Source: Gluconacetobacter dulcium
Lineage (GTDB): Bacteria > Pseudomonadota > Alphaproteobacteria > Acetobacterales > Acetobacteraceae
NCBI RefSeq assembly: GCF_014174165.1
Contig: NZ_JABEQN010000011.1
Span: 62,001-126,000 of the forward strand
Direction of reading: 5' to 3'
DNA length: 64,000 nucleotides
The position numbers and the translations under genes are program-made. Shown piece by piece: positions 6,827 to 54,877 of this stretch; the stretch's first letter is position 1, and every line of letters begins with the position of its first letter. A model generated the notes under the pieces. It ran no database searches. It was given only the letters and a program-made list of their open reading frames with translations, and was not told the origin of the DNA.

Positions 6827-8340
6827 TGTTCGGAGACCGGCCCGGCATCATTGGCCAGGACGCAAGTCAGTTCGGCGATCCTGGCGTTGCCCGGCGCGAA
6901 TTCGAATGTCGTGCGCCACCCCTGGATGGCCGGATCGGGTTCGACCACGACGTTGCGGATCGTCCCGGCCGAACTGCTGGGCACCAGATGGAATTTGGCA
7001 TCCGGCGGCAAATTCTCGAATGGCGTGCCGCTGAAATCGATCGCAAAGAACCGCGCGGCCGGATCATCGGTCACCGCACCGACACGGGTGGCGGCAATCC
7101 GCGCCAGCTTGGTCGGCCAGGGCGTATCCCAACCCCAGTACATGCGATAGGTAAAGGCATATTCCTGCCCCGCCGCCAGCCCACCGCTGGGGCGCCAGAA
7201 CGAAACGATGTTGTCGTTCACCTCGTTGGGCGTCGGGATTTCCACCAGATCGACCGCACCTGGCCCCCAGTCGCCAATCGGCTCGATCCACAGCGACGGA
7301 CGCTTTTCGTAATTGAGCGCCAGATCCTCGAAATCGGCGAAAGCCCGCTTGCGCTGCATCAGCCCGAAGCCGCGCATCGAATTGTCCGAGAACGCCGAGA
7401 ATTGCAGGTCACGCGGATTGCGCAGCGGCCGCCACAATTGCTGGCCGCTACCGGTCCAGATCGAAAGTGCTTCGCTGTCATGCGCGGCAGGGCGCCAGTC
7501 ATCGACATGATTGCGGTCGTTGGCATCGAAATAGAACATGCCCGTCAGCGGCGCGATGCCCGGTTCGTCGATCTTCGTGCGCGGATACACATAGGACTGC
7601 ACATCGAAAACAGTCATGTCGCCCGGGCGGATGGTAAAGCTGAAAGCCCCCGCGACCGACGGGCTGTCCAGCAGCGCATGCACCACCACGGAATCGACCC
7701 CTGGCTGTGGCTTTTCCAGCCAGAAGGCGCGGAACAGCGCGAATTCTTCACCTTTCGGATTGCCCGTGCCATCGGCGAAACCACGGGCCGAGAGGCCGTA
7801 ATTCTGCCCCTTGGCCACCGCGCGGAAATAAGACGCACCCAGAAAGACGCAGAATTCCTCCATTACGCCCGGCGTGTTGATCGCATAGCGCAGACGCAGC
7901 CCGGCAAAACCCACATTGTCCGGCACCTTCAGCTTCGGGTCGCCATAGGTGAACAGATCGGGATTATAGGGCACCGGCGCCGATTTGCCGTCCACAACCT
8001 CATAGATCTCAATACGGGGACGGTAGAGAAAACCGCGTGGGAAGAATTCCACGTCGAAGGCCAGGTTCTGGCCGTGCCAGAGCGCCTGGTCCTCGCGATA
8101 GGCGATCGAGCGGTACTGATCGAAATTCATCGAATCAATCGCTGCAGGCAGGGTCTGCTCGGGCGCACGATAGGGCCGGCGCGACAATTGCTGGGCGATC
8201 CGGCGCACCGTGCCTGCCTCGAAGGCGCCGGTCGGTGAGGGCGCACCAGGTGCGTCGGCATGGGCGGCGCGGGCGCCTGCCCCCAGCATCGACAGCAGGG
8301 AGACACCCGCTCCGGTCTTCACGAGATCGCGTCTTAACAT
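6802..8340 (-). CDS. opgG: Periplasmic glucan biosynthesis protein OpgG/OpgD family
   Basis: This is the periplasmic partner of OpgH, needed for glucan backbone release or branching. The start at 8340 is set by a strong SD (GGGGAGC, 5 bases upstream) and opens on a twin-arginine signal (MLRRDLVKTGAGVSLLSML, cleavage near AAHA). In-frame codons extend upstream to 8514 but would bury the signal. The 512-residue product has the MdoG fold with the family stretches FDQYRSIAYR, ALWHGQNLAFDVEFFPRGFLY and FAGLRLRYAIN. The C-terminal Ig-like domain ends SEQWTYRWTP. A Tat signal with RR is more typical of OpgD than of Sec-exported OpgG, so the assignment between these paralogs is open. Order here is opgG then opgH. 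Confidence 0.93.
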   Translation of the reverse strand: MLRRDLVKTGAGVSLLSMLGAGARAAHADAPGAPSPTGAFEAGTVRRIAQQLSRRPYRAPEQTLPAAIDSMNFDQYRSIAYREDQALWHGQNLAFDVEFFPRGFLYRPRIEIYEVVDGKSAPVPYNPDLFTYGDPKLKVPDNVGFAGLRLRYAINTPGVMEEFCVFLGASYFRAVAKGQNYGLSARGFADGTGNPKGEEFALFRAFWLEKPQPGVDSVVVHALLDSPSVAGAFSFTIRPGDMTVFDVQSYVYPRTKIDEPGIAPLTGMFYFDANDRNHVDDWRPAAHDSEALSIWTGSGQQLWRPLRNPRDLQFSAFSDNSMRGFGLMQRKRAFADFEDLALNYEKRPSLWIEPIGDWGPGAVDLVEIPTPNEVNDNIVSFWRPSGGLAAGQEYAFTYRMYWGWDTPWPTKLARIAATRVGAVTDDPAARFFAIDFSGTPFENLPPDAKFHLVPSSSAGTIRNVVVEPDPAIQGWRTTFEFAPGNARIAELTCVLANDAGPVSEQWTYRWTP

Positions 8341-8554
8341 CCTTGCTCCCCGAACGCCGCGCATGGCAACGCCATCCGTCCATGATCTGCCACCGGCGCC
8401 AGAGCGCCAGCGGGTTGCGTTGCAGCGCCGCTGACGTCGGCGCCTCCAAAGCCATACAGGCAATCTCTTAATTATGACAAAGGCCTGTGGCCACATTGCG
8501 GCGCGTTGTGACAATTCCCAAACATGAAATGATCAACGCAACGGCACATGGCCC

Positions 8555-8896
8555 TCATCGCGGTGCGAGACGCGTAGCCAGTTCGCGCAACGCCGGCAGG
8601 GCCGCCTGTGCTGCCCGCTCCTCGATCTCGCGATACAGACGCAGGATCTCGATCCCGGCCGGCGACAACTCGGCACCACCGCCCCCACCCGGTCGGGTCG
8701 CCACCACCGGCTCCGCGAAGGCGGCATTCATCGCCTCGACCAGCAGCCACGCGCGTCGATAGGACATCCCCATCGCCCGCGCAGCGCCGGAAATCGAACC
8801 GCTGGCACCGATGGCTTCCAGCAAGCGGATCTTGCCATGACCCAGCAGCGGCGCGTCATGCGCGTCGATCCGCACCGTCAGACGCGCATCCTCCAT
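8555..8896 (-). CDS. ModE-type winged-helix regulator, DNA-binding domain only
   Basis: This 113-residue protein consists of the ModE N-terminal helix-turn-helix domain without the C-terminal molybdate-binding (TOBE) domains. Typical text is GHGKIRLLEAIGASGSISGAARAMGMSYRRAWLLVEAMN, followed by the glycine-rich wing (RPGGGGGAELSPAGIEIL). The ATG at 8896 fits the family start, because more upstream residues do not look like protein. Such stand-alone domains act as transcriptional regulators, often of molybdate or metabolic genes. No molybdate transporter is visible nearby, so the target is unknown. It is transcribed toward opgG but is separated from it by about 210 bases. Confidence 0.85.
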   Translation of the reverse strand: MEDARLTVRIDAHDAPLLGHGKIRLLEAIGASGSISGAARAMGMSYRRAWLLVEAMNAAFAEPVVATRPGGGGGAELSPAGIEILRLYREIEERAAQAALPALRELATRLAPR

Positions 8897-8998
8897 CCCA
8901 CACCGTCTCCCGCTCCCGATAGCGCCAGCACTGTCCGCCTGCGCGCCGCATGCTATGCTGGAGTTGTCGCCCGCCTGTCGAGAGCGTTTTTGCCGCCC

Positions 8999-9532
8999 AT
9001 GCCGACTGCCACATCCATACCAGGCTCCCGCCAGCCAAGCTGGCGCACCATGCATCCGATCGATCTGCCCGCCGTGCTGGATATCGCGGCGCGCGTGCAT
9101 CCCGCCTATCCCGAAGGCGAATCAGTCTTCGCCGAACGGCTCGCCCTATGCCCCGTCGGTTGCCTGGTCCTCGACCGAGGCGCGGGGCTCGAAGGCTATG
9201 TCATCAGCCATCCCTGGTGCGCCGCCGCCCCGCCGGCATTGGATTGCGCACTGGGCGCGCTGCCAGCACGGCCGGATTGCTGGTATCTGCACGATATCGC
9301 ACTGTTGACCGACGCCAGGGGTCAGGGCGCCCCTGCCACCGCGCTGGCGATCCTGGCCGAACGCGCGGCATCGGCCGGCCTGTCGCGCATTGCACTCATC
9401 GCGACCGGCAGTGCCGGAGCTTACTGGCTGCGTGTCGGATTCACCCCGATCGACGAGCCGGAGGCCACCGCCATTCTCGCCAGCTACGACCCGAAAGCAC
9501 GGCTGATGACCCGTGCCGTGCAACCGGGCTAA
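8999..9532 (+). CDS. GNAT-family N-acetyltransferase
   Basis: This 177-residue protein starts at the ATG at 8999, divergent from the ModE-like gene with about 100 bases between starts. The GNAT fold is visible: IDLPAVLDIAARVHPAYP (beta1-alpha1), GYVISHPWC, the WYLHDIALLTDARGQGAPATALAIL core with the Q/R-x-x-G-x-A-like acetyl-CoA loop, and the late strand YWLRVGFTPI. The substrate is not predictable. ATG at 9050 is a possible shorter start, since the first 17 residues are not clearly part of the domain. Confidence 0.8.
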   Translation: MPTATSIPGSRQPSWRTMHPIDLPAVLDIAARVHPAYPEGESVFAERLALCPVGCLVLDRGAGLEGYVISHPWCAAAPPALDCALGALPARPDCWYLHDIALLTDARGQGAPATALAILAERAASAGLSRIALIATGSAGAYWLRVGFTPIDEPEATAILASYDPKARLMTRAVQPG

Positions 9533-39000: not shown

Positions 39001-40476
39001 ATGAAGCTCGATTTCACGACTCTGAACAGCATGCGCCAGCATAATGCCGCCTGGCGCCTGTTATGCTCGGACCATGCGCCGCTTATTCTCAGCTTTCTGC
39101 ATCAGACGTTCATCCGCCCCAATGTGCGCAGCCTGGAAGCCGAGAGCATGGCGGAAGCGCTGGAAGACGTGCTGTATGCGCTCCGCCAGCAACTGGACGA
39201 GACCGCGTTTCCCAGAACGGCGCGGGAGTATCTGGAAGACTGGGCTTCGCCCGACAAAGGCTGGCTGAGAAAATTCTACCAACATGGCACGGACAATGCC
39301 GTGTTCGACATGACCCCGGCCACCGAGAAAGTCCTTTCATGGCTGGAGCAACTGGCCGAACGCAGCTTTGTGGGCACGGAATCGCGCCTGCGGACCCTGT
39401 TCGACCTGCTGCGCCAGATGAATGAGGGCTCTCAGAGCGACCCGGACCAGCGCCTGGCGGACCTGCGCCGGCGTCGCGACGAGATCGACGCGGAAATTGC
39501 CCGTATCCAGAGCGGCGACCTCAGCCTGATGGATGATACCGGCATCAAGGAACGGTTCTCACAATTCACACGCATGGCGCGCGACCTTCTCGCCGACTTT
39601 CGTGAGGTGGAATATAATTTTCGCCGTCTGGACCGCGCCGTGCGAGAGCGCGTCGCCTTGTGGGACGGCACCAAGGGCGCCCTGCTGGATGAAATCCTGG
39701 CCCAGCACGACCTGATCAATGAGTCCGACCAGGGGCGCAGTTTTCAGGCCTTCTGGAACTTCCTCATGTCCAATCGCCGGCAGGAAGAACTGTCGCAGCA
39801 TCTGGAACGCATTCTCTCCCTGCCGGTTATTGCGAACCTGCACCCGGACCCGCGACTACGCCGCATTCATTACGACTGGCTGGAGGCCGGCGAACACACG
39901 CAACGCACGGTCGCGCAATTGTCTCACCGCCTGCGTCAGTTTCTCGATGATCAGAGCCGGCAGGAAAGCAGACGCATCACGGAGATTCTGTGTAATATCG
40001 AGGCGCACGCGCTCGCCATGCGTCCCTACCTGTCTGACGGCCCGCCCGACGAGGCCCTGATCGGGCTTGACGCCATGTCGGCCTCCCCTGACCTGCTCAT
40101 GGAGCGGCCACTTTATACGCCCCCTCTTCCCACGATCCTGACCATCGACCCGCTTCCCGACGATGAAACGGACGACGCCGACCCGACGGCCCTGTACGAA
40201 CAGGTTATGGTGGATCGGACGCGCCTGGCCGAAAATATTCAGCAGGCTCTGGCGGAAGCCCCGCAGGTGAGCCTGGCAGCCCTGCTGCGCCGTTATCCTC
40301 TGGAACAGGGGTTGTCCGAACTGGTGGCCTATCTTCAACTCAGCAGTGAGCGCTTCGCGAGCCTCATTGATGAAAAGACAAACGACCATGTAAGCTGGGA
40401 TATCATGACCGCTGACGGATCCATCATAACGCGCGACGCCACCCTTCAACGCGTGATTTTCGTGAGATCGGCATGA
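39001..40476 (+). CDS. jetA: Wadjet system protein JetA (DUF3375, kleisin-like)
   Basis: JetA is the kleisin-like subunit of the Wadjet SMC complex that recognises and cleaves small circular DNA. The 491-residue product matches the DUF3375 family in length and begins MKLDFTTLNSMRQHNAAWRLLCSDHAPLILSFLHQTFI, a recognisable family opening. The middle is long helix with coiled-coil potential (about 150-200, SDPDQRLADLRRRRDEIDAEIARIQSGD). The C-terminal part (about 395-491) is a winged-helix-type region. The gene overlaps jetB (ATGA). A 5-codon ATG frame at 38987-39004 overlaps the start. Confidence 0.92.
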   Translation: MKLDFTTLNSMRQHNAAWRLLCSDHAPLILSFLHQTFIRPNVRSLEAESMAEALEDVLYALRQQLDETAFPRTAREYLEDWASPDKGWLRKFYQHGTDNAVFDMTPATEKVLSWLEQLAERSFVGTESRLRTLFDLLRQMNEGSQSDPDQRLADLRRRRDEIDAEIARIQSGDLSLMDDTGIKERFSQFTRMARDLLADFREVEYNFRRLDRAVRERVALWDGTKGALLDEILAQHDLINESDQGRSFQAFWNFLMSNRRQEELSQHLERILSLPVIANLHPDPRLRRIHYDWLEAGEHTQRTVAQLSHRLRQFLDDQSRQESRRITEILCNIEAHALAMRPYLSDGPPDEALIGLDAMSASPDLLMERPLYTPPLPTILTIDPLPDDETDDADPTALYEQVMVDRTRLAENIQQALAEAPQVSLAALLRRYPLEQGLSELVAYLQLSSERFASLIDEKTNDHVSWDIMTADGSIITRDATLQRVIFVRSA

Positions 40477-41231
40477 GCCAGACGGTCGACGCCCCGGATG
40501 ACGGGCAGGCTCCGGCTCAATCCCCCGCGTCTCTCTCCACACTCGCCATCGCCCTGCTGAAGGGCGTGATCTACCGGGAGGACGATGAAGGGCAATGGGG
40601 ACACCTGCTCCATCTGCAAAATCAGGTGCGGGATTATGTGTCCGTGCTGGGGCTGGTCCTGATGATCGACCCCGCCGAAGGCTATGCCTATCTGCGCAGC
40701 GTACCCGAGACGGAGGAGGATGAGGGCGCATCGCGCATGCCCCGCCTGATCGCGCGGCGCCCGCTCTCCTTTCATGTCAGTCTGCTTTTAGCCCTGCTCC
40801 GCCAGCAATTAGTGCGGTTTGATGCCATAGGCGGTGAAACACGGCTTATCCTCAGCCGGAACGATATCGCCTCCATGCTCCAGACCTTCCTGCCGGAGAG
40901 CAGCAACGAAGTCCGGCAGCTTGGGCAGATCGAAACCTACATCCGTCGTGTGTCGGAACTCGGCTTTCTGCGCCCCATGGCGCCGGACAGTGCTGACGCA
41001 GCCAGCACGGCGCCGCGCTATGAGGTGCGCCGTATCCTCAAGGCCTATATTGATGCCGACTGGCTGGCCACGCTGGACGAACGGCTGGAAGCCTATCTGG
41101 CACATGCCCGCAGCCTGGAGCAGGCCGACAGGCCCCCGGCGGCCGCGCCCGCCACGTCCGAGCAGGCCGCCGAGCCCGACGCCCAGCTTTTTCCAGACTA
41201 TGCCGATGCAGGACTGATCGACCGTGAGTGA
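40473..41231 (+). CDS. jetB: Wadjet system protein JetB (DUF4194, MukE-like)
   Basis: JetB is the MukE-like KITE subunit of the complex. The 252-residue product has the DUF4194 pattern: [57 protein letters not shown], and later [50 protein letters not shown] and [23 protein letters not shown]. The Ala/Pro-rich tail (about 215-252) is not conserved-looking. It overlaps jetA by 4 bases and jetC by 8 bases, so translation of the three is coupled. Confidence 0.92.
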
Positions 41232-44200
41232 TACCCAGCAAGCCCCGCTAGACTTTGCCGTGGATGATCGTCTGGCCGGGTTCCGCCTGCATCGTCTGGA
41301 AGTGCTGAACTGGGGCACGTTTGACAAGCGTGTCTGGCGCTTTGACCTCAACGGACGGAACGCGCTGCTTACAGGGAATATCGGCTCCGGCAAATCCACC
41401 CTGGTGGATGCCATCACGACCCTGCTCGTGCCCGCACAGCGCATTGTCTATAACAAGGCCGCCGGGGCGGAAACGCGGGAACGCTCGCTCCGCTCATACG
41501 TCACCGGCCATTATAAGTCCGAACGCAACGACGCAACAGGCTCCACCAAGTCTGTCAGCCTGCGCGATACGCAGAGCTATACGATTATTCTTGGTGTTTT
41601 CAAAAACGAAGGCTACCTGCAAACCGTAACGCTGGCACAGGTTTTCTGGACCAAGAAGCAGCAGGTTCAGCCGGCACGGTTTTTCGTATCCGTAGAAAAA
41701 GAACTCTCCATTCAGGAGCATTTTACCGGATTCGGCACCGATATCCTGCAACTGCGCAAGAATCTGCGCGCGCTCGGGGCGGAAGTCGAAGACAGCTTCA
41801 ACCGGTATGCCGCATGGTTCCGCCGCCGCTTCGGGATTGAGAACGAGCAGGCGCTGGATCTGTTCCTGCAAACCGTCTCCATGAAATCCGTCGATAACAT
41901 CACGGATTTCGTACGGGAAAACATGCTGGCACGGTTCGATGCCACGGACCGTATCCATGCCCTGATTTCTCATTTTGAAGACCTGAACGACTCCCATGAG
42001 GCTGTTCTGAAGGCCCAGAAACAGATCAGCCTGCTGACGCCCCTGGCCGAAGACCTTGCCACCCACAAGGACAGTGAAGCCCGCAGCGACACACTCAAGA
42101 CGTTCAGGCAGGCTCTGCCGGGTTATTTTGCCAGCCGGAAAGCCACGCTGCTCGAACAGCAGATCGCCAACGAGCAGGAGGTGTCCACAACCAACCAGCA
42201 ACAATTGGCGGAACAGGATGCTACCCGCATAACCTGCCGGCAAAAGCTGGACGAGATCAGGCAAGCTATCTACGCCAATGGCGGCGACAGGCTGGAGCAA
42301 CTGGCCTCCGCCATCCAGCAGGCGGAAAAGACCTGCGAGGAGCGTCGCAGGAATGCCGCGCACTACGCCACGCTTGTGGAACAGCTCAACGTCAGACCGG
42401 CCGATTCCTCCGAAGGGTTTCAAGAGCTTGCGCTTTACCTTAAAAAGCAGAAAGGCGAGTGGAAGAAGCAGGACGCGTGGCTTGCGAAAGACCTGACCGA
42501 GCAAAGCATTCTTTTCCACGAGGAAAAGAACCAGCACGCCGAAATCGTCACCGAACTGGACAGCCTGCGGAAACGTCAGAGCAATATTGACGAACGGCAG
42601 ATCCGTATGCGTGCCATGCTCTGTGATGCCTTGGACGTTTCCGCCGAGGAGTTACCTTTCGCCGGAGAACTCATCCGCGTACGCGACGATGCACGAGAGT
42701 GGGAAGGTGCGGCCGAGCGTCTGCTGCATGGCTTTGCGCTGTCCCTGCTCGTGCCAGATCATCTGTATGCACAGGTGGTGGACTGGGTTGATCGCACGCA
42801 CCTGAAAGGCCGCCTGGTCTATTACCACATCCAGCAACATCGCTCGGGCGCGCATGCCGCGCGCCAGCCCAATACGCTGGCCCGGAAACTGGAAGTCCAT
42901 CCGGACTCACCCATACGGCTGTGGGTGGAAAACGAGCTGGCTCACCGCTTCAGTTTTACATGCTGTGAAACGCAGGATCATTTTCGCCATTCCAGCAAGG
43001 CCGTAACCCGGTCCGGACAGGTGAAGGAGCCGGGCGGGCGACATGAGAAGGACGACCGCCACCGGATCGATGACCGAAGCCGTTATGTTCTGGGGTGGAA
43101 CAATGCCATCAAGATTGCGGCCCTGGAAGAGAAACAGCGCGAACAGGAAGCGCTGATACAGAAACATGCCGGTGAGATCGCGCAGGCCGAAAACACCCGC
43201 AAGATGCTTCAGGAACGGTTTGAGACCCTGACCAGGCTGGAACGCTATCCCGATTATACCCAACTGGACTGGCATGGTGCTGCGCAGACAGCAGCCCAGC
43301 TCACGGCAGAGCGGGAGGCGCTGACAGCGACATCCGATGTTCTGCGTGAACTCAAGCAGCAACAGGACCAGGCGGAACAGACATCGCGGCAGGCTGAGGC
43401 AGATTATATGGTCCTGTTCAAAAAGCAGGCGCGGCTGGACCAGTCCATGGAAACCCTTCAGGCACGCTTGCAACATTGCCGGACAGTGCTGGACGATTAT
43501 GCGCTCACGCCGCAGCATGAGCAGGAACTCGACCAGCTTCAGCGACAGATGAATGGTGCTGAATTAACCAGCCCCGATGCCTGTGATAGTGCGCAAACGC
43601 AGCTTCGTGACCTGCTGGATACACAAATCGACCATCTTCAGCGCACGCTGGATAGCCTGCGTGACAGCATTCTGCGCGACATGCGTGAATTCCGGGCGAC
43701 TTACCCTGTAGAAGCGCAGGACATCGACTGCAATGTGAAAGCAGGCCCTGAATATTGTGCATTGCTGGCACAGCTCCAGAAAGATGACCTGCCCCGCTTT
43801 GTCAGTCGCTTCAAGAACCTCATGACTGTCAACACCATCAACGAAATTGCAAATTTCAACGCACATCTGGCGCAGGAACGGGAGATCATCAAGGAACGGA
43901 TTTCGGTCATCAACACCTCCCTCACCCAGATTGACTACAATCCGGACCGCTATATCCGCCTGGAAGCGCACCAGACACTGGACCCGGAGATTCGGGATTT
44001 TCAGACATCTCTGCGCGCCTGCACGGAAAATTCCGTTTCCGGAGACGATACCGAACAATATTCCGAACGGCGCTTTCATCGGGTTAAAGAGATTATCGAA
44101 CGATTCCGGGGGCGAGAGGGTCGGGCGGAACAGGACCTTCGCTGGACCAGAAAAGTGACCGATGTACGCAACTGGTTTTCGTTCGCTGCCAGCGAACGCT

Positions 44201-44631
44201 GGCGTGCGGATGAGACCGAGTTTGACCATTATACAGATTCCGGCGGCAAATCCGGCGGTCAGAAAGAAAAGCTGGCCTATACCATTCTGGCCGCCAGCCT
44301 GGCCTATCAATTCGGGCTGGAATGGGGGGAAGTGCGCTCACGCTCATTCCGCTTCGTGGTGATCGACGAGGCTTTTGGCCGTGGGTCTGATGACTCTACC
44401 CAATACGGTCTACGGCTGTTCCAGCAACTGAACATGCAGCTTCTTATCATTACACCATTGCAGAAAATCCATATCATCGAACCGTTTGTTTCGAGTGTCG
44501 GCTTTGTCGACAATCGCGACGGGAATTACTCGCGCCTGCGCGTACTCAGTATCGAGGAGCATTTTGCCAACAAGGCGTCTCTGCATGACTCAACACCAGA
44601 GCGGCCAAGGCATGAGAGCCAGCCTGCGTGA
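41224..44631 (+). CDS. jetC: Wadjet system protein JetC (SMC/MukB-like ATPase)
   Basis: JetC is the SMC motor that extrudes DNA loops. The 1135-residue protein has the Walker [15 protein letters not shown] at about 51-64. Two long coiled-coil arms (about 285-470 and 640-790, rich in Glu, Gln and Lys) flank a hinge (about 475-600). The C-terminal head has the ABC signature [21 protein letters not shown] near 1008-1028 and the Walker B/D-loop [18 protein letters not shown] near 1042-1059. The GTG start at 41224 overlaps jetB. GC is a little lower than flanking genes, in keeping with a mobile defence island. Confidence 0.94.
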
Positions 44632-45809
44632 CCTGGACCACGCAGGCGGACCTCAGAGCACATCTTGAGCGCTTGTGGAAAAGGGGCATACTGCCAAATG
44701 CCCTTATCACCAGGACCAGCCTGTTCCCGTTAGCCTTCCCCCTGCGCACGCCAGGCGCAGCCGATATCACGCATCGCCTGCCTGCCGTCAGAGAGTGGGT
44801 GGACACACTCAAATCCATACCGCATGTCAAGCTCATTGCGCACACGGTCAACAACCGGGTACAAGGCGCACAGACACTTCCGCAAACGATCGTTATTGAA
44901 ACATTGGAAGATGCTCTGGCCCTTCTGGGCAAAGAAGACATGGCCCGACAGATCATGGCTCTGCATGACCTTACGCTGCAACAGGCACCTTTCTTGCAGG
45001 ACTGGCTCTCTCAAAATGCTCTGACGGCCTATCGTCACGCGGCGGAATGGCAGCGACTGTTAACGCTGACTCTCTGGATGAAGGAAAACCCTGCTCCCAA
45101 TATCTATCTGAGGCAGGTCGACCTACCGGGAATTCATACCAAATTTATCGAACAACATAAGGCTGTTCTTTCCAATCTTTTTCGGAATACCCTCCCCGCG
45201 CAGGCTGTTAATGCGTCATATTCAGGCACTGCCCAGTTTGAATCTTGCTACGGCTTTCGCACCAAACCTTTGCGTGTGCGTTTTCGGGTGTTGGATGCCG
45301 CACTGTCTCCGGTCCCCGCCAGTGCGCATCCGGACATCACCCTGGACGCTGAAAGCTTCGCGGCGCTTCCCCTTTCAGGCTGTCGCATTTTCATCGTAGA
45401 AAACGAGAATTGCTTTCTTGCATTTCCGCCGCTTGAAAATGCGCTGGTCATCTTCGGCGCGGGATATTGCTGGGGTTCCCTGAAGCGCGCCCACTGGCTG
45501 CGAGACTGCTCCGTTTATTATTGGGGAGATATCGACACGCACGGATTCGGCGTTCTTGACCAACTCCGGGACATTTTACCACATACCCGTTCCTTTCTAA
45601 TGGATGAACAGACTTTTCAGACCTACCGGCAGTTCTGGGATACGGAACCCACTCCCGTTCGGCGGACGCTTTCACGCCTGACACCATCGGAACAGATTAT
45701 TTTTACCGCCCTTCAGAGCCATCGCTTCGGCCCCAACCTGCGCCTTGAACAGGAACGGATTCATTTCTCCGATCTGCAACAGGTGCTGGATCAACTGACT
45801 GGCCCATAG
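44628..45809 (+). CDS. jetD: Wadjet system protein JetD (DUF3322/DUF2220, Toprim nuclease)
   Basis: JetD is the topoisomerase VI-like nuclease that cuts the extruded plasmid. The 393-residue protein has an N-terminal DUF3322 domain (about 1-185, with [28 protein letters not shown]) and a C-terminal DUF2220 Toprim domain. The Toprim Glu is in [15 protein letters not shown] (about 253) and the DxD pair in [16 protein letters not shown] (about 298-313). The GTG start at 44628 overlaps the jetC stop (GTGA). The set jetA-jetB-jetC-jetD is complete and intact, in canonical order. Confidence 0.94.
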
Positions 45810-46833: not shown

Positions 46834-46885
46834 GAGGCCGCTCTCGTTCGCCAGTCCATATGTCCGGTCAGCCTCTCAGGAGGCC
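46834..46885. repeat. Decayed copy of the 167-bp repeat's right end
   Basis: GAGGCCGCTCTCGTTCGCC...GTCCGGTCAGCCTCTCAGGAGGCCC aligns with the end of the 167-bp units at 56035-56470 (GGGCCGCTCTCGCTCGCC...TTTCGGTCAGGCTCTGAAAGGCC). It fills the gap between the sulfotransferase and LysR genes and slightly overlaps the LysR stop. Confidence 0.6.
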
Positions 46886-47823
46886 CTGGCGGCATGTGCC
46901 CCGGCACCGGGCTGAAACGCGTCGGCGACATGGATCAGCCACGAGCGCAGGCGCATCAGGGCCGGGCGTTCCCAGCTATTTTCGGGAATGAACAGCGTAT
47001 AGGCGCCGATCGCGATACCGTCGAACGGCGCTTCCGGCGACCCGACCCGCACCAGCGTGCCGTTGCGCAGATCATCTTCCAGCAGGAACGGATTGGCCAG
47101 TGCCACGCCCTGGCCCTCGCGCGCCGAGGCCAGCACCAGATGAGCATGCCACAGCCGGGCCGCCGGGATCATGGACGGTGCCGCCACCCCCTGCCGGGCA
47201 AGCCAGGTCAGCCATTCATGACTGTCTTCCTCGGCCAGCAGCGGTTGCGACAGCAGGTCGCCCACCGTGCGGATCGGCCCCGCGCGACGCAGGAACTCCG
47301 GGCTGGCGACCGGAAAGACCGGCGGCCGGGCCAGTTCCGCCTGGCGGATGCCCGGCTGCGGTTCGTGGGGCCGACCGTCCAGTTGGTAGCGGATATCGGC
47401 ATCGACGCCGTCGGACCAGAACCGGGCGCGCGCATCGGTCGGCCGCAGCAGCAGGTCGATGTCCGGAAATTCGGTGCGGAAGTTGCCCAGCCGGCGTACC
47501 AGCCAGTGAAAGGCGAATCCCGGCACGCACCACACGCTCAGTTGCGGCAGGTCGCCGGCGCGCAGGGCCTCCGTCGCGCGGGCGATCTCGTCCAGCGCGC
47601 TGGCGATCCGGTCGTGATAGATCCGGCCGGCCTCGGTCAGCCCGCCGCCCGCGCGGTCCAGCAGGGGCACGCCGGCCCATTTTTCCAGGGCGCGCAGATG
47701 GCGGCTGACGACGGCATGATCGATCCGCAACCATTCCGCCGCGCGGCGGATGCCGCGCGTACGGCCGAACGCATCGAAGGCACGGAGCGGCCCGAAGGGC
47801 GGAAAAGGGCGTCTGTCTGCCAT
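46876..47823 (-). CDS. LysR-type transcriptional regulator (GcvA-like)
   Basis: The 315-residue protein has an N-terminal LysR helix-turn-helix (PPFGPLRAFDAFGRTRGIRRAAEWLRIDHAVVSRHLRALEKWAGVPLLDRAGGGLTEAGR). The effector domain follows, with LSVWCVPGFAFHWLVRRLGNF near 100 and LLAEEDSHEWLTWLARQGVA near 200. It matches the GcvA-like subgroup. It is divergent from the TonB-dependent receptor gene with about 260 bases between starts, so it is a candidate regulator of the receptor and the amine dehydrogenase cluster. Confidence 0.92.
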   Translation of the reverse strand: MADRRPFPPFGPLRAFDAFGRTRGIRRAAEWLRIDHAVVSRHLRALEKWAGVPLLDRAGGGLTEAGRIYHDRIASALDEIARATEALRAGDLPQLSVWCVPGFAFHWLVRRLGNFRTEFPDIDLLLRPTDARARFWSDGVDADIRYQLDGRPHEPQPGIRQAELARPPVFPVASPEFLRRAGPIRTVGDLLSQPLLAEEDSHEWLTWLARQGVAAPSMIPAARLWHAHLVLASAREGQGVALANPFLLEDDLRNGTLVRVGSPEAPFDGIAIGAYTLFIPENSWERPALMRLRSWLIHVADAFQPGAGAHAARAS

Positions 47824-48082: not shown

Positions 48083-50680
48083 ATGCGATCAGGACGGGTT
48101 TGGGTGCGAAACGGACAATTCTTGCGTGCGCGACTTCTCGGAACGGCAGTCCTGGGCGGTGTCATCGGCAGCATGGCCGGTGCGCCGGCCTTTGCCCGCA
48201 CGGCGTCGGAACCCGCTACCGCATCCGCGCCCTCCGCGAAGAAGCCGGCCCATGCCTCCGCCCGCCACGGCGCGGGCCGGGCCGCCCATCCGGCAGCGGC
48301 CGCGCATGCGTCCGCCCGTCCCATCGCGGCGCCCCGCGCCGCCGAGGAGGCGGTCAATGTCGTGGCCAGTCACCATACCTCGCATGGCGCGGAAACCAGC
48401 GTCACGCGCGCGATGCTGGAATCGCAGGTCGCAGGCACCAACATCCTGAAAGCGGTGGGGCAGTTGCCGGGCGTCAGTTTCAGTTCCAGCGATCCGCTGG
48501 GTCTCGATACCTGGGGCACCAGCGTCTATGTGCGCGGCTTCTTCCAGGATTCGATCGGCATGACGCTGGATGGCGTGCCGCTGAACGACCAGACCTATGT
48601 CAGCGTCAACGGCATCAATGTCGCCGATGCCTGGATTTCCGACGATATTCAGGGCGTCGAGGTCTCGCAGGGGGCCGGCGGTGTCGATCTGCCAGGCAAT
48701 TCCAGCCTCGGCGGCACGATGCGCTTCCACACCACGGACCCCAAGGACAAGATGGGGGCCAAGGCTTCGCAGGTATTCGGCAGTTACGGCAGTCTGCGCA
48801 CCTATGTCCGCGCCGACAGCGGTGCGCTCAACGCCAGCGGCACGAAATTCTACGTCGCCTACCAGCGCTCCGACGAGCGGAAATACGACGCCGCCACACC
48901 GGGTTTCATGCAGACGGTCAACGCCAAGTTTGTCCAGCCCATCGGGCACGACAGCCGCATCACCGCGTCGTTCAACTGGAACGACGCCGCGGTCTGGGGC
49001 TACGCGGACAAATCGTTGAGCATCCTGCGCAATGCCGGCTGGCGGACGGAATCCTGGGCGCCGGACTACAGGGGCGGCTACAATGCGTCCGAATATACCT
49101 ACGTCAATTCCGGTCTGGTCAATTATACCGGCCCCGGCACCTATAATGTCGGCGGCACGAACCTGATCTTCCCGGCGGGTACCAGCCCGACGATCCCGGC
49201 GTCCTGGGCCTTGACGGACCAGGGTGCGGAAACCGCCTTCTATGATGCGGGGCAGGCGACGCAGGATTATCTGGGTCACATCAACGCCGACCTGGCGCTG
49301 ACCGATCGTCTGCGCTGGAATACCGTGCTGTACGGCGCCGCGTTCAACGGAAATGCGACCTATGGCGCCCCCACCACGCCGTCGCCGGGTACCGGCGCTC
49401 CGCTGTCCGAGGAGGTCTGGCAGCCATCCTACCAGCGTTTCGGCTTCACCAGCGCCTTCATCTGGCAGATCGGCCACCACACCATCAATGTCGGTGGCTG
49501 GTACGAGAACAATTCCCAGCGTGCCGACCTGTTCTGGTATAACGAGCCGGTCTACGGCCAGGGCGCCCCGCTTCAGACGGTCGGCCCCTACACGACCTAT
49601 GGCCCCGCCTTCCAGCAGGGGTACGGTTTCAAGTGGAACACCAACACGTTCCAGTTCCACGTCATGGATAGCTGGCGCCCCGTGGACGGGCTGACGGTGA
49701 CCTACGGCTTCCGCTCGGTGCTCCAGACGACGGCGGGCGGCGCCTATTACGGCAATGTCGATGCCGGATACGGCACGGGCGTGGGGGCTGATGCCGGCCT
49801 GCCCAACGGGTCGATGACGTCGTCCGCCGCGTTCCTGCCGGCCGTCAATCTCGATTATCATTTCGGCCGGGGTCACGAGGTCTATTTCGATTTCGCCGAG
49901 AACATGCGCCCCTTCATGGTGGCTCCCTCGGGCGGGTCGGTCTCGCCCTGGGCGGTCTCGTCGCAGGATACGTTCAAGCAGCTTCAGCACAGCCTGCCCA
50001 ACGAACGCGATTTCAGCTATGTCGCCGGCTACCGCTATACTTCGCGCAAGATCCAGGCGTCGATCGACGGCTATCATTCCGATGCCTACAACCGCCTGAT
50101 CTCGGCCTCGGTCGGTTCGCTGAACAACCCGGTCACCTCGGTGGTCAATTCGAAGCACGCGGTGATGTGGGGCATGGACGCCTCGCTGACCCTGCAACCT
50201 TTCGAAGGGCTGGCGCGCGGCCTCGCCTGGACCAACTCGATCAGCTATAACCATTTCACCTATGCCGATCACGTCAATATCTGCCCGCTGGACGGCGATT
50301 GCGACATCAAGGGCACCAAGATGGTGGCCTATCCGTCGGTGATGTACAAGACCAGCCTGTCATATGAGTACAAGGGCGCATCCGCGCATTTCGACGTAAA
50401 CTATTACGGCAAGCGCTATTTCTCGTATATGAACGACACGCACATCGCGCCATACTGGATGGCCAATCTGGGCGCCAAATACCGCTTCGGCAATCTCAGC
50501 GTGCTGAAGAACGTTACCCTGGCGTTCGAGGTCTATAACCTCTTCAACCAGAAATATGTCGCGATGATGGGTGAAAACGGCTTCCCGATCGGCGGCCAGT
50601 CCGGCGATGGCGGCGACTACCAGTCGCTGGAGCGTGGCGCGGTGCGGGAATATTTCGGTACGATCAGCGCCGAATACTGA
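48083..50680 (+). CDS. TonB-dependent outer-membrane receptor
   Basis: The 865-residue protein has a signal region (FLRARLLGTAVLGGVIGSMAGAPAFA), an Ala/His-rich linker (about 40-85), and the plug domain with TRAMLESQVAGTNILKAVGQLPGVSFSSSDPLGLDTWGTSVYVRGFFQDSIGMTLDGVPLNDQTY. The 22-strand barrel follows, ending in YFGTISAEY with a terminal aromatic residue. The MRSGRVWVRN start at 48083 has GGGGAAAG upstream. The substrate is unknown. It lies 67 bases before the TTQ dehydrogenase genes on the same strand, so uptake of a related compound or metal is possible. Confidence 0.93.
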   Translation: MRSGRVWVRNGQFLRARLLGTAVLGGVIGSMAGAPAFARTASEPATASAPSAKKPAHASARHGAGRAAHPAAAAHASARPIAAPRAAEEAVNVVASHHTSHGAETSVTRAMLESQVAGTNILKAVGQLPGVSFSSSDPLGLDTWGTSVYVRGFFQDSIGMTLDGVPLNDQTYVSVNGINVADAWISDDIQGVEVSQGAGGVDLPGNSSLGGTMRFHTTDPKDKMGAKASQVFGSYGSLRTYVRADSGALNASGTKFYVAYQRSDERKYDAATPGFMQTVNAKFVQPIGHDSRITASFNWNDAAVWGYADKSLSILRNAGWRTESWAPDYRGGYNASEYTYVNSGLVNYTGPGTYNVGGTNLIFPAGTSPTIPASWALTDQGAETAFYDAGQATQDYLGHINADLALTDRLRWNTVLYGAAFNGNATYGAPTTPSPGTGAPLSEEVWQPSYQRFGFTSAFIWQIGHHTINVGGWYENNSQRADLFWYNEPVYGQGAPLQTVGPYTTYGPAFQQGYGFKWNTNTFQFHVMDSWRPVDGLTVTYGFRSVLQTTAGGAYYGNVDAGYGTGVGADAGLPNGSMTSSAAFLPAVNLDYHFGRGHEVYFDFAENMRPFMVAPSGGSVSPWAVSSQDTFKQLQHSLPNERDFSYVAGYRYTSRKIQASIDGYHSDAYNRLISASVGSLNNPVTSVVNSKHAVMWGMDASLTLQPFEGLARGLAWTNSISYNHFTYADHVNICPLDGDCDIKGTKMVAYPSVMYKTSLSYEYKGASAHFDVNYYGKRYFSYMNDTHIAPYWMANLGAKYRFGNLSVLKNVTLAFEVYNLFNQKYVAMMGENGFPIGGQSGDGGDYQSLERGAVREYFGTISAEY

Positions 50681-50747
50681 TCAAGGCAGCGTGTCCGGGC
50701 CATACCGGCCGGACACCTCACGTTCAACAGGGGGCAGGAAAGCCGCG

Positions 50748-51923
50748 ATGGTGGGTTGGAACATGAAGACCGCGTACCGCGCGGCGCTGGCCGCCGTGCT
50801 GGCCGCCCCGGCCGGCGCCGCCCAGGCCGCGTCGCCGGTCCTGCAGGCCGAGCAGAGCGATGTCGCGACCCTGCCGCCGGTCGGCGCGCACTGGGTCCTG
50901 CCCGCGACCGACCGGGACTCCTACACGCTCTATGACGCCGATGCCGGCAAGATCCTCGGCACCGTGCCGGCCAGCATCCTGGGCAATATCGCGCTCTCGC
51001 CCGACCGGCGGACCTTCTACGTCGCCGACACGATCTGGTCGCGCGTCGATCACGGCACGCGGCAGGACCTGATCCAGGAATACGACACCCACACCCTGGC
51101 CCTGCGGCGCGAGATCACGCTGCCGCCGCGCGCCCTGGCGGTCTACAAGGGGCAGGATTTCGATGTCAGCCCCGATGGCCGATGGGGCTACGTCTTCGAC
51201 ATGAGCCCGGCGACCTCGGTCACGATCGTCGATCTGGCGAAGGGCGCGGTGGCGCGCACGGTCGATATCCCCGGCTGCGCCCTGGTCTTTCCCTGGAAGC
51301 AGGACGGATTTTCCAGCCTGTGCGGCGACGGGTCGCTGACCAATGTGGGCTATGCGGGCGACAAGCCGACCGTGACCCACACGGCCCCGTTCTTCGATGC
51401 CAATAACGACCCGATCTTCGAGCAGGGGCTGGTCGATCACGCGACCGGGCGCGCGCTGTTCGTCTCCTATACCGGCAAGGTCTATGACGTGATGCTGGGT
51501 GCGAAGCCCCAGATCGCCGCGCCCTGGTCGATCCAGGCGGCCGCCGGCCAGCCCGTGGCCGGCACCGGCGTGCAGGAGCAGGCGTGGCGCCCCGGCGGCA
51601 AGCAGCCCTTCGCGTGGAACCGCGCCAGCGGGCACCTGTTCGTGCTGATGCATGTCGGCCCGCACTGGACGCACAAGACCGACGGCACCGAGGTGTGGGA
51701 GTTCGATCCCGCCCACCACACGCTGCTCCGGCGCATCGACCTGCCGCAGCCCGCACGCGGCATCGCCGTCAGCGGCGACGCCGCCCCGCTGCTATATGCC
51801 ACCTCGGCGGACGGCAACATGGCGGTGATCGACGCGCGGACCGGTGCCGTCCGCCGCACGATCGAAGCCCATTCGGAGGCCATGATCCTGGCGCCGGACC
51901 TCCTGCCGGGCCATGACGGATGA
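50748..51923 (+). CDS. TTQ amine dehydrogenase heavy chain (MauB/AauB-like)
   Basis: The 391-residue product has a signal peptide (AYRAALAAVLAAPAGAAQA) and a seven-bladed propeller of the methylamine/aromatic amine dehydrogenase large subunit type. Typical text is ILGNIALSPDRRTFYVADTIWSRVDHGTRQDLIQEYDTHTLALRREITLPPRA, CALVFPWKQDGFSSLCGDGSLTNV, YTGKVYDVML, EQAWRPGGKQPFAWNRASGHLFVLMHVGPHWTHKTDGTEVWEFD. It forms the periplasmic alpha2beta2 enzyme with the light chain at 52586. Methylamine versus aralkylamine preference cannot be decided from sequence. ATG at 50763 is an alternative start. The stop overlaps the next start. Confidence 0.9.
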   Translation: MVGWNMKTAYRAALAAVLAAPAGAAQAASPVLQAEQSDVATLPPVGAHWVLPATDRDSYTLYDADAGKILGTVPASILGNIALSPDRRTFYVADTIWSRVDHGTRQDLIQEYDTHTLALRREITLPPRALAVYKGQDFDVSPDGRWGYVFDMSPATSVTIVDLAKGAVARTVDIPGCALVFPWKQDGFSSLCGDGSLTNVGYAGDKPTVTHTAPFFDANNDPIFEQGLVDHATGRALFVSYTGKVYDVMLGAKPQIAAPWSIQAAAGQPVAGTGVQEQAWRPGGKQPFAWNRASGHLFVLMHVGPHWTHKTDGTEVWEFDPAHHTLLRRIDLPQPARGIAVSGDAAPLLYATSADGNMAVIDARTGAVRRTIEAHSEAMILAPDLLPGHDG

Positions 51924-52537
51924 CGGACACCGCGTCGCCGATGACCGTCCTGGCCTGGGCTCAGGCGCTGGACTGGCTGCTGCTGCTGGCGCTGGCGCCG
52001 GTGCTGGTGCTGCTGTTCCGGCGGATGCGCTACCTGTTTACCAAGGTGGCACCGGTCGGCGCGTTGATGACGTCCGGCGGCCCGGCCCCCGGCCAGACGC
52101 TGGCCGCATACCCGCTACGCGCGCTGGACGGCACGGCGCTCACCGTGGGCGGGTCGCAGCCCACGGGCACGCGCACGCTGCTGCTGTTCGTGTCCGGCAC
52201 CTGCCCGATCTCGCGCAAGATGCTGCCGATCGCACAGGATTTCGTGCGCCGCGAGGCCATCGAGCTGCTGTGCCTGGGCGACGATACCGATGCGATGCAG
52301 CGCGATCTGGTGGTGCGCTTCGGCCTCGCGCCGTCCCGTTTCGTCAACGACCCCGAGATCGGGCGCGTGCTCGGTATCGACAAGCTGCCCTTCGCCCTGC
52401 TGCTCGATGCGTCGGGCAGGATCGTGGCCAAGGGCCTGGTCAATAATCGTGAACATCTCGAAAGCCTGGTTGTGGCGGGGGAAACCGGCCACGTCTCGGT
52501 CCAATCCTATCTGGACGCGCGGCCTCGCGCGGCATGA
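51920..52537 (+). CDS. MauD-like thioredoxin-fold protein with CPIS site
   Basis: The 205-residue protein has one N-terminal membrane anchor (WLLLLALAPVLVLLF, about 19-33) and a periplasmic thioredoxin fold with LLLFVSGTCPISRKMLPIAQDFV. MauD proteins help form or isomerise disulfides in the light chain. Here the second active-site Cys is replaced by Ser (Cys95-Pro-Ile-Ser98), which would leave a one-cysteine site. A second, normal MauD (54311) follows in the cluster. It sits between heavy and light chain genes, and its start overlaps the heavy-chain stop (ATGA). Confidence 0.85.
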   Translation: MTDTASPMTVLAWAQALDWLLLLALAPVLVLLFRRMRYLFTKVAPVGALMTSGGPAPGQTLAAYPLRALDGTALTVGGSQPTGTRTLLLFVSGTCPISRKMLPIAQDFVRREAIELLCLGDDTDAMQRDLVVRFGLAPSRFVNDPEIGRVLGIDKLPFALLLDASGRIVAKGLVNNREHLESLVVAGETGHVSVQSYLDARPRAA

Positions 52538-52585
52538 TCGCGCCGGTTCGCCCCGGCCTGTGGAACCTTCAGGAGTAACGCGCCA

Positions 52586-53146
52586 ATGCCGGTTTCTTTC
52601 TTCGACACGCTGGGCGAAGCCGTGACGCGCCGGCTGGCGGCCCGATCCTCGCGGCGCGGCGTGCTGGGGCGGATGGGCGCGGCCATGGCGGTGGCGCCTG
52701 CCTTCCCGCTGCTGCCGGTGCGCCGCGTCGAGGCCGCGCCGGCCCCCGCCGCCAACCCGATCGCGACCCTGACGGATTTCGAACGGCGGGCGCAGAGCAC
52801 CGACCCGACCAAGTGCAATTACTGGCGCCATTGTGCGATCGACGGCGTGCTGTGCGGCTGCTGCGGCGGCGGCATTCATACCTGCCCGCCCGGCACCCAG
52901 CCGTCGCCCGTGTCCTGGATCGGCACCTGCCGCAATCCCGACGACGGCCGCTCCTACGTCATCGCCTATCGCGACTGCTGCGGCCGCAATATCTGCGCCG
53001 CCCCGAAATCCTGCGACTGCAACACGGCCGATCGCGAAATGCCGATCTACCGTCCGCAGGCCAGCAACGACATCATCTGGTGTTTCGGCACGGCCTCCAC
53101 GGCCTATCATTGCTCGACCGCCGCGATCATCGGCCAGGCCGGCTGA
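52586..53146 (+). CDS. TTQ amine dehydrogenase light chain (MauA/AauA-like)
   Basis: The 186-residue protein has a long Tat-type signal (RRLAARSSRRGVLGRMGAAMAVAPAFPLLP) and a Cys-rich mature domain. It carries the TTQ site: NYWRHCAIDGVLCGCCGGG, SPVSWIGTC and NDIIWCFG, in which Trp111 and Trp165 are the expected cross-linked pair. The other Cys (CPPG, RDCCGRNIC, SCDC, YHCST) supply the six disulfides typical of this subunit. The CAAPKSCDC stretch differs from the CGRCxC of both known classes. It follows the CxxS MauD-like gene by 48 bases. Confidence 0.93.
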   Translation: MPVSFFDTLGEAVTRRLAARSSRRGVLGRMGAAMAVAPAFPLLPVRRVEAAPAPAANPIATLTDFERRAQSTDPTKCNYWRHCAIDGVLCGCCGGGIHTCPPGTQPSPVSWIGTCRNPDDGRSYVIAYRDCCGRNICAAPKSCDCNTADREMPIYRPQASNDIIWCFGTASTAYHCSTAAIIGQAG

Positions 53147-53185
53147 CGGGTGGAGGCGCCGCCGGCAGGGGGGCGCCGTACGACG

Positions 53186-53716
53186 ATGCGCCATCGGTCC
53201 CCGATCCTCTCCCTGGCCGCCGTGCCGGTCGTCGCCCTGTCGGTCCTCGCCCTGCTGGGCCTGGCCCGCGCGGCCCCCACAGCCGGTGCCCTGCCGGTGA
53301 TTCCGGCGGTGCAGGGCCATTATCTGATGGGGTGCGGCGGCTGCCATGGCATCCAGGGCCGTTCGGGGCGCGAGGTGGTGCCCGACCTGGCGGGACAGGT
53401 AGGGTATTTCCTCTGTACGCCGGAGGGGCGGGATTATCTGGTCCGCCTGCCGAACGTGGCCTTCGCCAACCTGTCGTCGGAGGATCTGGCCCGGATGATG
53501 AATTTCGTGGTCTTCACCTTCGGCGGCGCCAGCGTGCCGACCAACAGCCGCCCATACAGCACGGCCGAGATCGCGGCCCTGCGGGCTCGGCCACTGCGGA
53601 TGGCCGACCTGCATGGCTATCGCGATCAGGTCGTGCGCGCGGTCGTCCAGGCCTGCCCGGCGGCGGCGGGGCTGCATGGGTACGATGTGGCACAGGCGGC
53701 GCGTGTCGGGCCATGA
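53186..53716 (+). CDS. Periplasmic c-type cytochrome, single haem
   Basis: The 176-residue protein has a hydrophobic N-terminus (ILSLAAVPVVALSVLALLGLARA), acting as signal or anchor, and a CGGCH haem-binding site (about 50-54). Possible axial Met residues lie in the C-terminal half. One haem and this length fit a class I cytochrome that could take electrons from the TTQ enzyme in place of amicyanin or azurin, which is an inference. It is not MauG, which has two haems and about twice the length. An in-frame GTG at 53150 directly after the light-chain stop is an alternative start. Confidence 0.8.
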   Translation: MRHRSPILSLAAVPVVALSVLALLGLARAAPTAGALPVIPAVQGHYLMGCGGCHGIQGRSGREVVPDLAGQVGYFLCTPEGRDYLVRLPNVAFANLSSEDLARMMNFVVFTFGGASVPTNSRPYSTAEIAALRARPLRMADLHGYRDQVVRAVVQACPAAAGLHGYDVAQAARVGP

Positions 53717-53774
53717 GGGCAAAAGGGGCAAGAGGACAAGGCATGACAGAGATTTTCCTTCATCGGGGCCGGGC

Positions 53775-54314
53775 ATGATCGCCCCCGCCATCCTGCCTCT
53801 GGGCGGCGCATTGCTGGCCGGGGGCATCGGCATGCTGCTGCTGGTCGCCGGCTTGGCCAAACTGCGCGATCATGACGGGTTCCTGACCACGCTGGCCGCC
53901 TACCGGCTGGTGCCCGATTCCCTGCTGGACTCCGCCGCCTGGGCTTTGGCGATCGCGGAAACCGGCGTGGGCGCGGCCCTGCTGGCCGGCGTGGCCCCCC
54001 TCTGGGCCGGTATCGGCGCGGCGCTGCTGTTCGTGCTGTTCGTGCTGGCGATGGCCATCAACCTGCTGCGCGGGCGGGCCGATCTCTCCTGCGGGTGCCT
54101 GCCCGGCATGGAATCCGCCCGCCTGTCCTGGGGCGCCGTCGCGCGCAGCACCTTGCTGGCACCGGCCGCGCTGCTGCCGGCGCTGACCGGCCTGCCCACA
54201 TCCCTGCTGCTGCGCTATCAGGCGCTGGCGGCCGGCGCCTGCCTGCTGGCGCTGATCCTGGCGCTGTCGCACCTGATATCGGCCGCGCGCGGCCCGGAGG
54301 AACAATCCGCATGA
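53775..54314 (+). CDS. mauE: MauE-like membrane protein
   Basis: The 179-residue protein has four to five membrane helices (LGGALLAGGIGMLLLVAGLAKL, IAETGVGAALLAGVAPLW, IGAALLFVLFVLAMAINLL, LLALILALSHLISA). The loop RGRADLSCGCLPGM holds two Cys (CGC), as in MauE/DoxX-like proteins. It is required, together with MauD, for maturation and disulfide formation in the light chain. Its stop overlaps the mauD start (ATGA). Confidence 0.85.
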   Translation: MIAPAILPLGGALLAGGIGMLLLVAGLAKLRDHDGFLTTLAAYRLVPDSLLDSAAWALAIAETGVGAALLAGVAPLWAGIGAALLFVLFVLAMAINLLRGRADLSCGCLPGMESARLSWGAVARSTLLAPAALLPALTGLPTSLLLRYQALAAGACLLALILALSHLISAARGPEEQSA

Positions 54315-54877
54315 TGACGCTCCTGATCGTGTCGCAGGTGCTGCTGTTCGCCGCCATCGTCGCCCTGGTGCTGGTGGTGCTTGCCCTGGCGCGCCAGATC
54401 GGCATCCTGCACGAGCGCATCGCCCCGATCGGCCAGCAGCAGCCTCAGCGCGGGCTCGACATCGGCCAGGCGATTCCGCGCATCACCATGCGCACGCTCG
54501 ACGGCGCGCCCTTTCCGGTGGGCGAGCGTCTGGCGGCCGGCACCATCCGCATGCTGCTGTTCGTCGGCGCCGACTGCCCTGTCTGCAAGCGCGTGCTGCC
54601 GATCGCGCTGGACGTGGCGCGCGAACGCGGCCTGGAACCCGTTCTGGTCGGCGATGGCGCGGTGCCCGAACTGGCGGCCCTGCGCGACCGTCTGGCGCTG
54701 GGCGACATCCCGTTCGTCACGGGCGTCGAACTGGGGCTGGTCCTGCAGGTCAGCCGCCTGCCGACCCTGGTGCTGCTGGACGATAACGGCACCATCCTGG
54801 CCCGCGACGTGGTGAACACACGCCGCCAGGTCGAGGCCCTGCTGCCCACCGTCACCGGGCACTCCGCCGCCGCATGA
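54311..54877 (+). CDS. mauD: MauD thioredoxin-fold maturation protein
   Basis: The 188-residue protein has an N-terminal membrane anchor (LLIVSQVLLFAAIVALVLVVLALA) and a thioredoxin domain with LLFVGADCPVCKRVLPIALDVARERGLEPVLVG, so the CxxC (Cys89, Cys92) is intact. MauD and MauE act in making the light-chain disulfides. This is the second MauD-type protein in the cluster and the only one with two active-site Cys. It is the last gene of the run, followed by an 80-base gap to the metallopeptidase gene. Confidence 0.9.
   Translation: MMTLLIVSQVLLFAAIVALVLVVLALARQIGILHERIAPIGQQQPQRGLDIGQAIPRITMRTLDGAPFPVGERLAAGTIRMLLFVGADCPVCKRVLPIALDVARERGLEPVLVGDGAVPELAALRDRLALGDIPFVTGVELGLVLQVSRLPTLVLLDDNGTILARDVVNTRRQVEALLPTVTGHSAAA

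Follow-up and report, generated by a model that had tools for sequence, protein, structure and literature searches.

A TTQ-type amine dehydrogenase operon without mauG in Gluconacetobacter dulcium, and a one-haem cytochrome as its candidate maturase

The operon and its described relatives

The formation of tryptophan tryptophylquinone (TTQ) is the textbook case of MauG chemistry. In the mau clusters of Paracoccus and Methylobacterium, which code for methylamine dehydrogenase (MADH), the genes for the heavy chain, the light chain, MauE and MauD are linked to mauF, mauG, mauJ and usually to an amicyanin gene. Here, we describe a TTQ-type amine dehydrogenase operon of Gluconacetobacter dulcium, located in a stretch of 64,000 nucleotides (contig NZ_JABEQN010000011.1, positions 62,001 to 126,000; hereafter, the window), that has the first four genes in common with mau and a light chain on the same side of our tree, but that carries none of the others. 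We tentatively explain it as the operon of a periplasmic enzyme of the TTQ family that would make its cofactor without MauG, the maturase being the small one-haem cytochrome encoded behind the light chain (here, cytB); the case for and against this explanation is nearly balanced.

The light and heavy chains of the aau system of Alcaligenes faecalis, the aromatic amine dehydrogenase (AADH; solved as 2agl and others), also resemble those of the window. However, a 100/99 split in our tree parts the aau light chain from that of the window, the gene order differs, and the window has two MauD proteins. The aau cluster, as Chistoserdov reportedly described in 2001, has the order aauBEDA, with no mauF, G, L, M, or N found in it, and its orf-2, 3' of aauA, is said to encode a small one-haem cytochrome, which we take to be the probable counterpart of cytB. 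Azurin is the acceptor of the aau-type enzyme. An operon with the same five-gene content, mauBEDA plus a cytochrome, was noted in 2008 in Methylacidiphilum infernorum V4 (PMC2474590). Amicyanin, MauF, and MauL are said there to be absent; the authors consider that the operon may code for a methylamine dehydrogenase and mention a MauG homologue at another place in the genome (PMC2474590). Beyond this remark, we found no statement on a MauG-free route to TTQ, or on the ligand that cytB lacks, in the available parts of a mostly open-access literature.

The genes from the TonB-dependent receptor to the CxxC MauD form a single plus-strand run in which neighbours overlap or lie less than 100 bases apart, with a regulator diverging from it:

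46876-47823, minus strand: LysR-type regulator, GcvA-like (PF03466, PF00126), divergent from the operon
48083-50680, plus strand: TonB-dependent receptor (PF07715 Plug, 45.6 bits), 5' of the heavy chain
50763-51923, plus strand: TTQ amine dehydrogenase heavy chain (PF06433, 156 bits)
51920-52537, plus strand: MauD-like membrane thioredoxin with CPIS replacing CPxC (TIGR02661, 134 bits, below the cut-off of 188.6)
52586-53146, plus strand: TTQ light chain (PF02975, 177 bits; TIGR02659, 192.9 bits, just below the cut-off of 196.85)
53186-53716, plus strand: cytB, c552-type one-haem protein (CXXCH at residues 50-54), without the methionine-ligand loop
53775-54314, plus strand: MauE-like membrane protein (PF07291, 79.7 bits)
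54311-54877, plus strand: second MauD, CPVC motif (TIGR02661, 144 bits, below the cut-off)

An earlier note on this DNA, made from the letters alone, had described a plus-strand run of heavy chain, CxxS MauD-like protein, light chain, one-haem cytochrome, MauE, and MauD behind a TonB receptor, and all of it, coordinates included, proved right. It had also seen no mauF, mauG or amicyanin gene, and hidden Markov models (HMMs) from four mau clusters (Paracoccus denitrificans, P. yeei, Indioceanicola, and Methylobacterium) bore this out, with no match in the window for mauF, mauG, mauJ, mauM, mauN, or amicyanin. The best solved matches of the heavy chain are the MADH and AADH heavy chains (E 2e-38). 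The light chain aligns to the solved light chains of both enzymes, and the two tryptophans of the TTQ (Trp111 and Trp165), Asp86, Asp130, and many cysteines are present; its SRRGVLGRM may, in our reading, be a twin-arginine-like leader. Other acetic acid bacteria (e.g., L013-L018) likewise have a homologue of the TonB receptor 5' of the heavy chain, and the LysR-type regulator scores 189 bits with the GcvA subfamily model NF008352, below its cut-off of 288.

The cytochrome beside the light chain

As judged from its alignments, cytB resembles Thermus cytochrome c552 but lacks the loop with the Met69 ligand. The haem of Thermus thermophilus cytochrome c552 (1c52) is ligated by His15 and Met69; five-coordination has been reported for its C14A/M69A mutant (PMC10635480). 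We compared 100 cytB sequences with 44 of cytA, the ordinary Met-ligated cytochrome found, for example, in the sister clusters of this genome. A methionine stands at the ligand column in all 44 cytA, and all 100 cytB have a gap there. From the haem His to a conserved Asn column there are 70-71 residues in cytA and 52-53 in cytB, with no overlap, and the cytB of the window is about 18 residues shorter than cytA at the ligand loop. When the cytB profile was compared with the PDB, the best match was Thermus c552; the alignment falls into two parts and omits chain residues 51-72 of 2fwl, where the Met69 loop lies, whereas cytA aligns straight through. Both cytochromes have a C-terminal extension with two conserved Arg that is found in c552 too, so that family and extension are common to cytB and c552 (1c52, 2fwl), whereas the Met69 loop belongs to c552 only.

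Of the two marks of an electron carrier, CXXCH and a distal methionine, cytB has the first and lacks the second (Met loop in 0/100). The presence of CXXCH in all 100 rows is by construction, since every row without an in-frame motif was dropped from the cytB sets (1 of 79 matches, the frame-split L075). Because the Met loop is lost, the haem of cytB is presumably five-coordinate, its site being vacant or otherwise filled. The window protein gives a weak PF00034 match (20.4 bits, cut-off 21.3) and none to PF03150, the MauG/peroxidase family. Thus, cytB would have its proposed role in common with MauG, but with its one CXXCH and no PF03150 match we saw no family kinship between them.

Distribution of cytB, mauG and the MauG family

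The prevailing gene order is heavy-MauE-MauD-light-(cytA)-cytB, both in 12 clusters from an evenly drawn Pseudomonadota sample and in 80 related loci, the best 80 of 578 confirmed, to which acetic acid bacteria and sphingomonads contribute most. The window has a rearranged version, with the CxxS MauD between heavy and light chains and MauE-MauD after the cytochrome, that is common to its Gluconacetobacter kin (L013-L018). The CPxS motif was found in 24 of the 131 MauD copies scanned (8 unreadable), 23 of them in acetic acid bacteria.

We sorted 122 clusters with the mau HMMs and our own sets, scanning a fixed list of families around each cluster (neighbours were not all clustered) and counting cytB within 3 kb of the light chain. 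CytB without mauG was found in 112 clusters (not an unbiased rate, the even samples being the Pseudomonadota and class samples), mauG without cytB in five, both in none, and neither in five. Two of the loci (L080 and L155) are one and the same, hence a second count on merged identical light chains, which gave 104, 5, 0, and 4, respectively. Left out of the 122 were a decayed Sphaerotilus cluster and a Thermomicrobium locus, both with light chains below 150 bits; two mau clusters (L135, L136) have frames that match cytB at 17 and 25 bits, but these overlap the light chain, have no CXXCH and were ignored. The cytochrome behind the light chain, part of what the earlier note had called an atypical composition, is therefore the majority form, and only the gene order and the CxxS MauD are local, being common to the Gluconacetobacter kin.

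All five mau-type clusters carry mauF, mauJ, and mauG and no cytB, with amicyanin in three and mauM/mauN in four of them (the fifth, L158, lies near a contig start). No cytB was found anywhere on the whole records of the four mau plasmids, whose chromosomes were not searched. The cluster of Novosphingobium aromaticivorans, which does have cytB, is likewise on a plasmid (pNL2). One genome (G731) has both cluster kinds, L158 with mauF, mauJ, and mauG and L159 with the single cytB of the genome, and is a natural test bed. The four distinct loci with neither gene are all in genomes with cytB elsewhere: for L166, L168, and L169 it lies in another cluster of the same genome, and for L167 (a K189A-clade genome, G446) cytB is retained but fully unlinked from the TTQ cluster. 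This unlinked cytB (L167:8652-9092, minus strand) adjoins a gene that we read as histone-deacetylase-like.

As for the two loci left out, the Sphaerotilus plasmid (L138, about 7400-9050) holds an apparently decayed cluster with no heavy-chain match, a shortened cytB frame, and a light-chain match that spans 56% of the query. On the Thermomicrobium roseum plasmid (L139, 4270-16836), five frames with a weak resemblance to the light chain (20-47 bits) lie close to MauE and MauD, possibly of another quinone-protein family, with no cytB or two-haem match in that region.

The association holds across genomes as well. Among 398 Pseudomonadota genomes, 11 have a strong light chain (15 copies). CytB matches of at least 74 bits, also 15 copies, occur in all 11 of these and are lacking from the other 387, although with at most 10 first-look candidates scored per genome these absences are less sure than those of the 80-genome scan below (at most 50). 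We did not count as cytB the partial 41-bit matches in two genomes without a strong light chain (G070 and G174), nor as light-chain genomes two with marginal matches (G264 and G295, the latter with four stops within the match and no cytB). The class sample of 385 genomes has a light chain above the cut-off in 12, this genome included. In 80 Alphaproteobacteria chosen from this sample, cytB was present in all 11 with a strong light chain (besides this genome) and in none of the 69 others (G295, 15 whose strong MauG-like matches reach 250 bits or more, and 53 taken in sequence). Every checked host of a non-mauG cluster has cytB. Part of this co-occurrence is operon linkage, because cytB is usually in the same operon; more weight falls on the exclusivity with mauG and on the unlinked case.

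A different question is whether the hosts have MauG-family proteins at all. As a test for MauG, TIGR03791 was tried and rejected: none of 61 host genomes passes its cut-off, but the MauG of P. denitrificans itself scores 96.8 against a cut-off of 443.85. That argument was dropped for this reason and PF03150 used instead, which recovers all four cluster-linked MauGs (153-188 bits). At E 0.01, PF03150 had no match in 13 of the 17 cytB-type genomes tested, which is a lower bound out of 61 and not a rate. The 17 were 15 genomes with no or weak TIGR03791 match plus two with matches (G327 and G146) as controls; the remaining two of the 15 have a 90-residue PF03150 fragment of 51 bits (G424) and a sub-cut-off match of 17.7 bits (G446). 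Among the 13 empty genomes, G058 and G190 are one contig each, and completeness is stated only for these two and for G259 (100% in all three; G259 has one TIGR03791 match, 20.8 bits). Provided that their assemblies are complete, a MauG-family protein is not available to these hosts. MauG-like matches of 330-367 bits were found in nine genomes, all without a light chain, so MauG homologues alone are uninformative on TTQ. Considering these searches, TTQ biogenesis in cytB-type clusters is probably MauG-independent; for G. dulcium and the hosts with family members, independence would follow by analogy.

The earlier note had proposed a genome search for a MauG-type protein, amicyanin, and azurin. 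Genome-wide, we found two PF03150 genes, both unlinked and far from the TTQ clusters, and no match to the cupredoxin family PF00127; mauF was searched in the window only. One of the two (L011) has three haems and a Haem_bd domain and scores 167 bits with TIGR03791, and the other (L012:7576-10672, minus strand) has two haems and a neighbour that we read as phosphoesterase-like.

That note had also ascribed TTQ formation to a distant or different enzyme. A different enzyme is probable given the 13 hosts without PF03150, but a distant one is not favoured. In the latter alternative, an unlinked enzyme, be it one of the two PF03150 proteins of this genome, another peroxidase, or a flavoprotein, would complete TTQ, or the process would be autocatalytic; cytB would then have a third role, such as sensing peroxide or O2 or helping the light chain to fold. 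The two PF03150 proteins speak for it; like the TIGR03791 matches of some kind in 48 of the 61 hosts, they count against our explanation. Scores do not exclude the two proteins, since the P. denitrificans MauG (97 bits with TIGR03791) stands below the unlinked three-haem protein (167 bits), and flavoproteins are described as taking part in the making of cysteine tryptophylquinone (PMC7876137). Nevertheless, most of the tested hosts (13/17) are without a PF03150 match, and we consider this alternative unlikely, although a further recurrent neighbour outside the fixed list of families scanned may exist.

Descent of the chains and the proposed role of cytB

The genome holds three TTQ light chains and three heavy chains, in the window cluster (c1) and two others. 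Cluster c2 (contig C4, L004:10197-13085, plus strand) consists of heavy chain, light chain, cytA and cytB, and MauE and MauD were not found there; the same arrangement without linked MauE/MauD is seen in Gluconacetobacter at L068, L081, L085, L090, and L092, and these proteins are presumably supplied in trans. Cluster c3 (contig C6, L005) has heavy chain, MauE, MauD, light chain, and two cytochromes, with a partial TonB receptor near the contig end.

All 109 aligned light chains have Trp111, Trp165, and Asp130, and 107 have Asp86; the alignment left out the light chains with YWK (YWR elsewhere) of L025, L140, and L141, in which both Trp are visible. The c3 light chain (L005:1844-2413, minus strand) has a His at the Asp86 position. 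Asp86 corresponds to the Asp32 of MADH, which is required for TTQ formation. The c3 substitution could point to a light chain without quinone, that is, to a decayed or repurposed TTQ enzyme. However, in the window protein neither the two Trp nor the two Asp nor the cysteines are lost, and the conserved gene set recurs in different families; we infer that TTQ is formed and regard its absence as most improbable.

The light-chain tree, built on few columns for many rows and with the window represented by L013 (identical domain), separates the window side from the AADH side, 87 versus 28 rows, with a 100/99 split. The window light chain, 99% identical to that of Gluconacetobacter liquefaciens, belongs, on the MADH side, to a group whose members are mainly acetic acid bacteria and sphingomonads, and that of c3 lies on the AADH side. 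The MADH and mauG-linked light chains form a 100/100 clade of six that excludes the window, and the heavy-chain tree (104 of the 117 distinct rows, AADH heavy chain not included) agrees. The light-chain tree, which the earlier note had suggested, thus places the window neither in the MADH clade nor on the AADH side, and the mixture of MADH and AADH features described there is explained by a third group on the MADH side. In both trees the mauG clusters are one clade and the cytB clusters lie on both sides. The trees are unrooted, and cytB first with MauG later would be the more economical reading. It may be, although we would not lean on it, that cytB is a one-haem TTQ synthase that arose from an electron-carrier cytochrome through deletion of the ligand loop, the original and still the commonest maturase, and that MauG displaced it once, in the MADH lineage.

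In the mechanism we propose, the heavy and light chains would form a periplasmic enzyme that oxidises an amine, and MauE and MauD (two here, one of them CxxS) would handle the disulphide-rich light chain; that of MADH has six disulphides (PMC7876137). CytB would dock on the immature light chain and oxidise it with O2 or H2O2, making or finishing the Trp111-Trp165 quinone, which is the job of MauG in methylamine dehydrogenase. A Met-ligated cytochrome of the ordinary kind, for instance the cytA of the sister clusters, would then carry off the electrons from the amine. CytB is the best candidate for the maturase because of its regular presence, its exclusivity with mauG, the absence of the MauG family from 13 hosts, and the loss of the carrier ligand. 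Its presence in every checked non-mauG host, with cytA optional, would fit a maturation factor better than an exchangeable acceptor.

Several observations weigh against this role. MauG is a two-haem enzyme, and we know of no one-haem substitute for it. The Arg82, Tyr84, and Asn106 conserved in cytB are also found in c552, and no cytB-specific catalytic residue was identified. A plain scan for an MP motif matches 3 of 100 cytB (43 of 44 cytA), and at position 93, close to the missing ligand, 22 of 100 have Met, 22 His, and 21 Phe, so that some members could be six-coordinate. Operon linkage alone would also fit an electron-transfer subunit, and cytA, found within 9 kb on the same strand in 32 of the 112 cytB clusters and on either strand in 45, has no copy within that distance in the other 67, where cytB might serve as acceptor.

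Several of these points favour the electron-acceptor role that the earlier note had assigned to the cytochrome, which is the main rival to our explanation. CytB would then be the physiological acceptor or a fixed relay subunit, with another residue, a residue of its partner, or water as sixth ligand, and TTQ would be made otherwise. CytB belongs to the c-type cytochromes (c552 family) and adjoins the light chain, in a genome with no PF00127 match, and for M. infernorum the five-gene set was described as mauBEDA with a cytochrome c (PMC2474590). On the other hand, the loss of a whole Met loop that cytA keeps (44/44), with a variable residue instead, would be odd for a carrier, and where both cytochromes occur, cytA is the Met-ligated one. 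CytB is in every checked non-mauG host, while cytA is often unlinked, and an exclusivity with mauG rather than with an acceptor would need another reason. We consider the acceptor role doubtful, though it keeps a fair probability.

Elsewhere in the window (39001-45809, plus strand), there is a complete Wadjet type I plasmid-defence operon, JetA, JetB, JetC, and JetD (best PADLOC models 686, 286, 1525, and 457 bits, respectively).

MauG-linked clusters are a minority in our samples, and the kind of operon described here is widespread but little studied. With cytB as a testable candidate, an old gap, the formation of aau-type TTQ without MauG, becomes a single-gene question. If our explanation is true, the replacement of a two-haem enzyme by one small haem protein would change the view of how protein-derived quinones are made, and it would point to a minimal kit for the expression of amine dehydrogenases, aromatic and other.

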